This document shows, piece after piece, positions 8,287-10,467 of a DNA stretch of 43,569 bases (positions are counted from its first letter, which is position 1; each line of letters begins with the position of its first letter). The stretch comes from an uncultured Roseiflexus sp. GTDB lineage: Bacteria; Chloroflexota; Chloroflexia; Chloroflexales; Roseiflexaceae. The stretch spans positions 1 through 43,569 of the forward strand of contig CALGYB010000069.1 in the NCBI GenBank assembly GCA_937935075.1. Reading direction: 5' to 3'. The position numbers were made by a program, and so were the translations under genes. Under the pieces are notes generated by a model. It was given only the letters and a program-made list of their open reading frames with translations, made no database searches and was not told the DNA's origin.

Positions 8287-8790
8287 TCACGGCGACGTCT
8301 CATCCCCAATTGCGTAGACCGTCGCCAGAATCGCCTCTTCGAGCGCCGCCAGATTGTCGCGGTCCTGATCATCGAGCGCCACTTCGCGCTGTGCCGCCTC
8401 GAAGTACCAGCGCACCATCGACTGAATGTGATGTTGGGTGACGCCGTGGCGCAGGAGCAGGCGCACGCTCCACTCAATTTCGCGTTGCAGCACCGACGGC
8501 GCCTGGAGCGCAAGCGCGACGAGCAACAAGCGATGGAGACGGTGCGGTGTGCGACTGAACGTCACCTGCTGATACTGGCTGCCATGGCGCGACTCAATGT
8601 CCGCCAGCAACCCTGCGAACGTCGATTTGAGGCGGTTTGTGACCGTGTTGCAGATGGCTTCACGACGTTGATCGAGCGCCTGAGCGACCTCTGGACCGCG
8701 ACTGGACAGCCACGCCGTCAATGAGCGCATAATTGCACCTTTCAGCGCCGATTTTTCCGAACAACCCGTTGTCCGACTCGCCATCGCCAT
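8287..8790 (-). CDS. Unknown helical protein coupled to the B12 regulator
   Basis: I do not recognise this 167-residue protein. It has no signal peptide or membrane helix, is rich in Arg, Gln and Leu, and reads as five or six amphipathic helices, for example REIEWSVRLLLRHGV and NLAALEEAILATVYAIG. A His-rich stretch, GVTQHHIQSMVRWYF, lies near residue 120. Its ATG overlaps the stop of the upstream regulator as TAATG, so the two are translationally coupled and probably act together. An in-frame ATG 20 codons in (MRSLTAWLSS) is an alternative start. It could be a partner, anti-activator or cofactor-binding helper of the B12 regulator, but that is only inference from position. Confidence 0.7.
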   Translation of the reverse strand: MAMASRTTGCSEKSALKGAIMRSLTAWLSSRGPEVAQALDQRREAICNTVTNRLKSTFAGLLADIESRHGSQYQQVTFSRTPHRLHRLLLVALALQAPSVLQREIEWSVRLLLRHGVTQHHIQSMVRWYFEAAQREVALDDQDRDNLAALEEAILATVYAIGDETSP

Positions 8791-9791
8791 TAATGGCGGA
8801 AGAAGTGCGCCTGTCGCGCCCAGCGTTCCGGATCGATCTCCTCGCCGAGATCATCAGCCCGGATCACCGCCTCGCGCAGATCGTTGCCCAGAAAGATGCC
8901 GGGGATGCGTCCACGAAGTTCAGGATGGCGGTCGAACACCTGACCGCTGTAGGCGAAGATCAACCGATGGCGGCGACGGTTTTCGGCGATGCGTGCAATT
9001 TCCAGCAGACCTGGAACGTGCTCCGCCATCGAGACCGACATACAGATGAGCGCCGGCGCCATCCGCACCAGGAAGCCGTCCAGCCCTTCCGCCGATACCG
9101 TTTGCCCCAGGTAGAGGAGTTCCCAGCCGCGCTGTTCCATCAGCAGCGAGAACATGATCAACCCGATCTCGTGCTGTTCTTCGGGCGCACACCCGGCGAT
9201 CAGGCGCGGACCGGTGGCGAACGGCGCGTGGATCTGCAACAACCCCAGGAGCCGCTGGCGCACGAAGTTGGTCACCACGCGCTCTTCCGCGACACACACA
9301 TCGCCCTGCGCCCAGCGTTCGCCGATCTCGATCAGCATCGGCTGAAACAGATCGAGCACCAGCGTCTCGATCGGGAAGAGCGCGACTGCGGTATTGACCA
9401 GCAGGTGCGCCTGGCGCAGGTTGGCGCTGAGCAATGCCTCGGTCAGTTGGGTGCGCAGGTCGGGCCAGCCGGCGTCGGCGAGCGTTGGCGGAGAAGGGTG
9501 CGGGGCGTGGGGTGCGATGTCGCCGGTATCGCTGATGTCGCGCAGCAGCGCAACTGCCTGACTGATCGCCAGTCCTTCCTCGGTGCACTGCTTGAGCCAT
9601 TTGATGATTTCGATGTCGCGCTGCGAATAGAGCCGATGACCGTGATCGGAGCGCGTCGGGCGCGGAACGCCATAGCGCTGCTCCCATGCGCGTAGCGTCG
9701 AAACATTGACCTGAGTCTGCTGGACGACCGCCTTAATGTTGTACCGTGGAACGTCGGACAGCGCCAGCAGGCGATGGACCTGCTCCAACAT
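8790..9791 (-). CDS. MerR-type regulator with cobalamin-binding domain (CarH/LitR-like)
   Basis: The 333-residue regulator has a MerR helix-turn-helix at residues 17-85 (YNIKAVVQQTQVNVSTLRAW, then GHRLYSQRDI), a helical B12-binding module at about 110-195 and a Rossmann-type B12 domain from 197. The cobalamin His motif ExxHxxG is present as E204-H207-G210. CarH-type photoreceptors also carry W-x9-EH over the adenosyl group; here W160 is followed by E170 and R171, so the His is replaced by Arg. Such proteins repress promoters in the dark and release DNA in light when adenosylcobalamin is cleaved. GGAG lies 7 nt before the ATG. It is divergent from the puf operon, with 500 bp between, so light control of puf is likely. 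Confidence 0.85.
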   Translation of the reverse strand: MLEQVHRLLALSDVPRYNIKAVVQQTQVNVSTLRAWEQRYGVPRPTRSDHGHRLYSQRDIEIIKWLKQCTEEGLAISQAVALLRDISDTGDIAPHAPHPSPPTLADAGWPDLRTQLTEALLSANLRQAHLLVNTAVALFPIETLVLDLFQPMLIEIGERWAQGDVCVAEERVVTNFVRQRLLGLLQIHAPFATGPRLIAGCAPEEQHEIGLIMFSLLMEQRGWELLYLGQTVSAEGLDGFLVRMAPALICMSVSMAEHVPGLLEIARIAENRRRHRLIFAYSGQVFDRHPELRGRIPGIFLGNDLREAVIRADDLGEEIDPERWARQAHFFRH

Positions 9792-9984
9792 GGGATTTCT
9801 CCATCTCTAGAACGGTCAAGCGTCGGCATGCGCGCCGCGGCGTTTGCAGAGCAACGGAGCCGGGGAGCAGTGCCACGCACACGGTCAGCGCCGCGTATTC
9901 ACCCTGCAGCGTGGCAGTTGCGACGGCAGGGTGAAGCAAGGTTCCCCACTTTTCCCCTCCTTTTGGCTAGGACTGTAGGGCTTT

Positions 9985-10012
9985 ATTATAGTATACGTAG
10001 AGGGAATGTCAA
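9985..10012 (-). promoter_or_regulatory. Consensus sigma-70 promoter of the B12 regulator
   Basis: On the minus strand TTGACA (10007-10012), 16 bp and TATAAT (9985-9990) form a near-ideal promoter, giving a leader of about 185 nt. A promoter this strong suits an autoregulated repressor. Confidence 0.75.
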
Positions 10013-10114
10013 ACGCTGTAGTGCATACTCTGACGCAATGTTACGACTTCACAACTCTGGCTTCTGCACACGATCTGCATAACCGTTGCATAGTATATGT
10101 GTAAGATGTTTTGA

Positions 10115-10144
10115 TTGACGTAGTGGCTTTTCCGGCGGTATAAT
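10115..10144 (+). promoter_or_regulatory. Sigma-70 promoter of the puf operon
   Basis: TTGACG (10115-10120), 18 bp and TATAAT (10139-10144) predict a start near 10151 and a leader of about 143 nt to pufB. It lies about 100 bp from the divergent regulator promoter, so a repressor bound between them could act on both. Confidence 0.75.
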
Positions 10145-10293
10145 CCCGATGAAACCCGCGAATACTATTGACACTACGGAGCTTCGACACGCTCGCTGGC
10201 AAGAAGCGACAGAGTCACTGGCGCGGGCAGAAACCATGACGCAGCGCGTTGCTGCAAGAGCCGGTCAGGCAGACACGAAAGGGGGTGACCCAC

Positions 10294-10467
10294 ATGACCG
10301 ACAAGCCACAGAACGATCTGGTGCCCGATCAGTGGAAGCCGTTGTTCAACAATGCGGAGTGGTTGGTGCACGACATTGTCGTGAAAACGATCTACGGCGG
10401 TCTGATTATCGCGGTGATTGCTCACGTGCTGTGCTGGGCCTGGACGCCCTGGCTTCAGTTCAGGTAA
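10294..10467 (+). CDS. pufB: Light-harvesting complex beta subunit
   Basis: The 57-residue membrane polypeptide begins [18 protein letters not shown] and has one transmembrane helix, [19 protein letters not shown]. The His in IAHVL is the ligand of the B880-type bacteriochlorophyll, and the WAWTPWLQF tail holds the Trp residues that tune it. A second His in AEWLVHDI is placed as expected for the B800-type pigment of the Roseiflexus antenna. GGGGG lies 6 nt before the ATG at 10294; frames running further upstream lack a ribosome site. It is the first gene of the puf operon, with pufA 18 nt downstream. Beta and alpha subunits pair around the reaction centre in the cytoplasmic membrane. Confidence 0.93.

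Follow-up and report, generated by a model that had tools for sequence, protein, structure and literature searches.

The analysed window, the 43,569-nt contig CALGYB010000069.1 of an uncultured Roseiflexus sp. (assembly GCA_937935075.1), contains a photosynthesis gene cluster of the Roseiflexus type, the host group being hot-spring bacteria. Divergent from pufB, the first of the puf genes for the light-harvesting (LH) polypeptides and the reaction centre, lies merB12, which encodes a MerR/B12 regulator and is followed directly by orf147, and the spacer between merB12 and pufB contains promoters in both directions and a set of direct repeats (Table 1). In 16 loci pufLM is adjacent and divergent to a gene of the same clade as merB12, all in one order; at L029, L037 and L040 no pufLM was found within the 3.7–8 kb visible upstream, and the other remaining loci stop at contig borders. 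According to PMC7308566, no transcription factor for photosynthesis genes had been recognised in filamentous anoxygenic phototrophs, nor had any PpsR homolog been found there. Our literature search found no paper joining Roseiflexus with a CarH/cobalamin photoreceptor, or with a MerR regulator of photosynthesis genes. Judged from its sequence and position, merB12 is at present the strongest candidate for the photosynthesis-gene regulator that has been missing in these bacteria.

The product of merB12 and its clade

In a profile search the inferred protein matches MerR_1 (E 6e-15), B12-binding_2 (1.9e-9) and B12-binding (8.3e-9), and by structure comparison its fold matches the CarH structures 5c8d, 5c8e and 5c8f. 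The alignment to TtCarH is unambiguous, with WAQGDVCVAEER against WHRGEIGVAEEH. W160, E170 and H207 are the counterparts of W131, E141 and the lower ligand H177 of TtCarH, and all three residues are retained. R171 occupies the position of H142, and the His of the Wx9EH motif is thereby lost (W160-x9-E170-R171); A161 is found at the position of H132, and the bis-His upper ligand of the light state is lost with it. The lower axial His motif D/ExHxxG is present as E205-Q-H207-E-I-G210. In TtCarH, Trp131 stacks on the adenosyl group, Glu141 hydrogen-bonds to it, and His132 is the upper ligand after light (PMC10442372). PMC11796333 names W131, E141, H142 and H177 as key residues for binding of adenosylcobalamin (AdoCbl), and gives GxxW, EH, GxxH and GxxxP as the signature of the light-responsive domain. 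In merB12 GxxW is kept, EH has become ER, GxxH reads EEQH, and GxxxP reads GQTVS with loss of the Pro. The score on the NCBIfam CarH equivalog NF052513 is 145.5 bits, far under the 400-bit cut-off.

A preliminary description of the locus had named a MerR/B12 protein with the Trp of Wx9EH at W160 and Arg171 in place of the His that caps the adenosyl group in CarH, and the domain matches and the TtCarH alignment agree with it on both points. The cobalamin motif had been given as E204-H207-G210, in which H207 and G210 stand and the acidic residue is to be corrected to E205. The altered adenosyl cap that it proposed holds for the change from H142 to R171 but is incomplete, the adenosyl contacts W131 and E141 being kept and H132 and the Pro of GxxxP being lost as well. 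To that description we add the putative operator, the absence of H132 and orf147 as a partner gene.

We compared 88 CarH-like proteins of Chloroflexota together with TtCarH (tree by iqtree with UFBoot). Position 142 in TtCarH numbering is His in 73 of the 88, Arg in 8 and Gln in 7, and all 15 non-His cases are confined to one puf-linked clade that is monophyletic (22/22 members, UFBoot 100), with EH kept in 66/66 proteins outside it. Several signature positions are altered together in the clade. Seven of its 22 members retain His at position 142, indicating that Arg or Gln arose inside the clade; Arg is found at L029 too, which lies outside Roseiflexus and its sister genus, and one genus has Gln, even Val-Gln, where CarH has Glu-His. 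H132 is missing in all 22 members, and also in many other Chloroflexota that have Tyr or Phe there, and its loss was thus rejected as a trait unique to the clade. Every one of the 88 proteins, clade members included, has W131 and the lower-ligand His. The recognition helix reads WEQRY in the clade as opposed to WERRY in normal CarH, with the exception of the most basal member, L042. A normal CarH paralog (WH..EH, about 41% identical to merB12) is kept in the same genomes and is found throughout the order; in Roseiflexus and Chloroflexus it adjoins a gene that by its sequence resembles phytoene synthase and that we take to be crtB. No member of the puf-linked clade was found in the searched genomes of the Chloroflexus lineage.

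The puf promoter and its repeats

The merB12 promoter matches the consensus at 12/12 positions and the puf promoter at 11/12, with three promoter-like sites observed against 0.7 expected. The two -35 boxes are 103 bp apart, as anticipated in the preliminary description, which had consensus promoters facing both ways about 100 bp apart beside pufBALMC, and five relatives keep both promoters. A scan of the intergenic region showed no terminator-like site. A second TTGACA at 10168–10173, which lies downstream of the puf -10 in what is presumably the leader, is conserved among the aligned Roseiflexus relatives and has no matching -10.

Within the intergenic region 9985–10150, which the preliminary description had named, there is a CarH-type repeat site, made up of four head-to-tail 11-bp units over 39 bp, with a unit consensus TGYRYA that is a variant of the CarH site TnnACA. 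CarH tetramers bind tandem 11-bp repeats nnnnTnnACAn of three or four units, four in B. megaterium (PMC9304148). All 24 positions fit four copies of TGYRYA, a motif picked after inspection of the site, and 0/2000 dinucleotide-preserving shuffles reach 24 (maximum 20). All Roseiflexus relatives keep the units, as do L026, L027, L028 and L034, and L031 and L032 keep them in part. At the level of sequence this conservation, more than the shuffle statistics, settles that the repeats are a genuinely conserved element. Each of five near-complete Roseiflexus genomes has a single site with no more than one mismatch, the one at puf, and reversed-pattern controls gave 0–1 sites in the same genomes; patterns with up to three mismatches yield just scattered weak sites, and no regulon beyond puf is claimed.

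The puf -35 of the window begins 17 bp past the start of the last unit, and in five puf loci from at least four genera this distance is 16–17 bp and the promoter spacer 18 bp. The putative operator spans about -86 to -43, with its centre at about -64 from the predicted start. Normal CarH operators, whose repeats overlap the -35 or -10 element, are built differently: in the three carH-crtB-type operators measured the -35 is in register 0 and is itself a repeat, and in the promoter of the normal carH paralog in Roseiflexus and Chloroflexus the -35 TTGACA is the middle one of three 11-bp units. The intergenic region at L042 (WERRY helix) has a perfect TnnACA triplet with an embedded TTGACA, oriented toward its own gene, and that at L030 (WEQRY helix) has perfect TnnACA triplets in both directions, both loci being those of distant relatives, which suggests that the puf arrangement descended from the normal CarH one. 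Spacer-bound MerR activators such as MerR and CueR have their operator between the -35 and -10, in a spacer of 19–20 bp; unlike in these, the puf operator is upstream of the -35 and the spacer is 18 bp.

Table 1. Coordinates of the regulatory locus, the puf genes and the normal CarH paralog; positions are those of the window unless a locus is given.
Feature	Position	Strand	Remarks
orf147	8287..8730	minus	147 aa; phycobiliprotein/photoglobin-fold protein (predicted)
merB12	8790..9791	minus	333 aa; MerR/B12 regulator, CarH-derived, puf-linked paralog; W160, A161, E170, R171, H207
merB12 promoter	9985..10012	minus	TTGACA-16-TATAAT
Putative operator	10065..10103	plus	four 11-bp direct repeats, TGCACA-N5-TGCATA-N5-TGCATA-N5-TGTGTA
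puf promoter	10115..10144	plus	TTGACG-18-TATAAT
pufB	10294..10467	plus	LH beta
pufA	10486..10617	plus	LH alpha
pufLM	10805..12730	plus	reaction-centre L and M as one fused open reading frame (ORF); PF00124, two stretches
pufC	12828..13790	plus	reaction-centre cytochrome; PF02276
Normal CarH paralog, then phytoene-synthase-like gene	L043:8204-10463, L048:7009-9135		

The partner gene orf147

The start of orf147 at 8730 is common to relatives, and a start at 8790 is spurious. The gene is located directly after merB12 in 18 loci. Matches to its family are found in 56/158 genomes of the class, 55 of them with a photosynthetic reaction centre above the cut-off, and in the remaining genome (G002) the assembly is broken just at the reaction-centre location; in the same order, families that have no reaction centre have no orf147 either. 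Among these 158 genomes the family is restricted to phototrophs, in a comparison that is confounded by ancestry.

The AlphaFold model of orf147 (pLDDT 89.7, pTM 0.86) has a predicted globin fold of the phycobiliprotein/photoglobin type. The leading Foldseek matches are all phycobiliproteins (prob 1.00, E 7e-3, TM 0.70–0.81), and a second structural aligner (VIA) gave Z scores of 16.4 (smURFP), about 15 (allophycocyanins) and 13.8 (globin domain of the photocobilin 8j2x), the last of which is not strong alone because helical folds may reach about 13 by chance. With hhalign, a weak match to the photoglobin domains of B12 fusions from the same order was obtained (E 4.5e-4, prob 33), scoring 29.8 as compared to a maximum of 19.2 in 60 shuffled-column controls. 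By sequence orf147 has no Pfam or PDB match, and DUF6074 (Pfam, E 0.11) was judged to be a chance match. The CXRD bilin attachment motif is not in its sequence, and BBAG-2 globins likewise are without CXRD (PMC10151467). Heme oxygenase PF01126 is missing in 6/6 Roseiflexus genomes, other or non-canonical types of heme oxygenase not having been searched, which makes biliverdin an unlikely chromophore; with neither this enzyme nor CXRD, a bilin cofactor is not supported. W87 is invariant in the family and H101 is present in 31/37 members; orf147 may bind a non-bilin tetrapyrrole or have no ligand at all.

Two further orf147 paralogs are found in the genome of the window (L097:7398-7886 and L098:7071-7550), distant from B12 genes, the one on L097 being about 6 kb from a lycopene-cyclase-like ORF. 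Chloroflexales also have photocobilin-like B12-domain proteins with an extra C- or N-terminal globin-like region and no MerR domain (L192-L203, L211).

Regulation of the puf genes

Our favoured reading, to which we assign a probability of about 0.6, is that merB12 acts as a cobalamin-binding regulator that derives from CarH and is specific to the puf promoter, with an altered switch chemistry and a globin partner. It builds on what the comparisons establish about the family and residues of the protein, the operator with its conservation and uniqueness, the linkage of the partner and its predicted fold. The protein would bind cobalamin and DNA, respond to light or another signal and contact orf147, and it would most likely repress when bound, because the puf promoter is near consensus and the CarH proteins described in the literature consulted are repressors. 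A merB12 tetramer would place four DNA-binding domains on the four repeats just upstream of the puf -35, where the AdoCbl-bound form would hold the site and hinder RNA polymerase; when the adenosyl group is lost or photolysed merB12 would be released, and the photosystem genes would be turned on in the light or upon a change in cobalamin state. The textbook CarH switch is excluded, because A161 permits no bis-His state and R171 replaces the conserved His. Since that switch is not possible, we propose that, as in photocobilins, release would proceed via a shift of the E170/R171 helix where the dimer partners meet, and that the neighbouring orf147 probably tunes it. SasPcob responds to light without bis-His, and its Glu-His helix shifts at the dimer interface (PMC10979010); CtMerR too is light-responsive without that ligand (PMC11796333). 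It is because such proteins work without this ligand that merB12 is read as a cobalamin-dependent puf regulator with a changed switch. More speculatively, and with some doubt on our side, merB12 and orf147 might constitute a two-protein, bilin-free relative of photocobilins, in which a globin subunit seated on the B12 domain would let the DNA-binding regulator sense light, oxygen or a tetrapyrrole of the (bacterio)chlorophyll pathway at puf, through a photochemical or redox switch without EH cap or bis-His.

Several points count against the favoured reading. Since TGYRYA had been chosen post hoc a motif-free repeat test was added, and it is weaker, 4/500 shuffles equalling the observed score at some period of 7–15. 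The operator is wholly upstream of the -35, which is out of register by 5–6 of 11 bp in all puf loci measured, whereas the carH-crtB operators are in register, and this makes upstream activation a serious rival. Here merB12, centred at about -64, would contact RNA polymerase (the C-terminal domain of the alpha subunit, or sigma region 4) and turn puf on, with its activity set by the cobalamin state or the globin partner. A promoter with 11/12 consensus positions is however more usual for repressible promoters, and the CarH proteins characterised in the literature covered are repressors, and we regard activation as possible but rather doubtful. As the key His of Wx9EH is lost, binding of AdoCbl may be weak or absent, and TtCarH H132A is mostly tetrameric in the light, although an earlier report saw disassembly (PMC10442372). 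The CarA/CarS pair shows that a CarH paralog can work independently of B12 (PMC9304148).

A regulator similar to CarA of Myxococcus xanthus, with the cobalamin fold as a scaffold, the signal coming from orf147 or another antirepressor and no direct role of light or B12, would fit the loss of H142, H132 and the GxxxP Pro in the clade, the Gln or Val-Gln for Glu-His in one genus, and the conserved partner gene. Like merB12, CarA is a CarH paralog with a damaged Wx9EH beside a normal CarH, but with the Trp lost, EH kept and a crt target, where merB12 has the Trp kept, EH broken and puf as target. The invariance of W131 and the lower-ligand His in 88/88 proteins is hard to explain without a bound corrinoid, and we hold this explanation to be less probable than activation. 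That another cobalamin is bound (hydroxo-, methyl- or cob(II)alamin), reporting cobalamin redox state or supply instead of light, agrees with changed upper-face residues and a retained lower ligand, but W160 and E170, whose counterparts hold the adenosyl group in CarH (PMC10442372), are kept in Roseiflexus, which makes it unlikely. The least probable alternative is an ordinary CarH photoreceptor with a neutral exchange of His for Arg and no functional alteration: family, fold and operator type are all those of CarH and Arg is able to hydrogen-bond, yet EH is found in 66/66 proteins outside the clade, the genome retains a normal paralog, and several signature positions have changed together.

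With CarH/LitR of Thermus, Bacillus megaterium and Myxococcus, merB12 shares the MerR domain, the four-helix bundle with the Trp, the Rossmann B12 domain with the lower-ligand His and the tandem 11-bp direct-repeat operator. It differs from them by ER for EH, A161 and no bis-His, the lack of the GxxxP Pro, WEQRY for WERRY, puf as the target rather than crt, a -35 outside the repeats, and the globin partner; the bis-His ligand after the Trp, absent from merB12, is a trait of many but not all CarH/LitR members. CtMerR of Chloracidobacterium thermophilum (8jbs/8jbt), another MerR-B12 protein from a phototroph, likewise lacks the bis-His ligand (PMC11796333), but it keeps Glu-His and is 22–23% identical to merB12 in the structural match. 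The photocobilins and photoglobins SasPcob and AbPcob similarly have a B12 domain beside a phycobiliprotein-like globin and a light state without bis-His (PMC10979010), but they are fused and without MerR, whereas here the genes are separate (8287–8730 and 8790–9791), a DNA-binding domain is present and there is no PF01126 heme oxygenase for biliverdin. AerR/PpaA of purple bacteria is also a B12 protein controlling photosystem genes (PMC6199135); AerR acts through CrtJ, while merB12 has its own MerR domain.

Illumination strongly raises pufL and pufBA in Chloroflexus (PMC7308566), which is not directly informative on the sign of regulation here because the puf-linked clade was not found in the searched genomes of that lineage. 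The locus supplies a concrete protein, a mapped 39-bp putative site and a partner, and with these specified the regulator question is testable in vitro without genetics. The natural variant of the AdoCbl pocket, with Arg or Gln for His and no bis-His ligand, is useful for studying switching in B12 photoreceptors, and the two-gene B12/globin arrangement adds to the known fused photocobilins.

The remainder of the cluster includes genes for a UbiA prenyltransferase resembling bchG and a geranylgeranyl reductase resembling bchP, and farther along the window there are ORFs that presumably are bchX, bchY and bchZ, the names being given from sequence. Between bchG and bchP, at 15058–15402, short tandem repeats are found, with ORFs reading FSVLGSR...FSVLSSR in two frames and probably no gene. 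Two very long ORFs at 32819–42759 (1446 and 1824 aa) resemble secreted repeat proteins.
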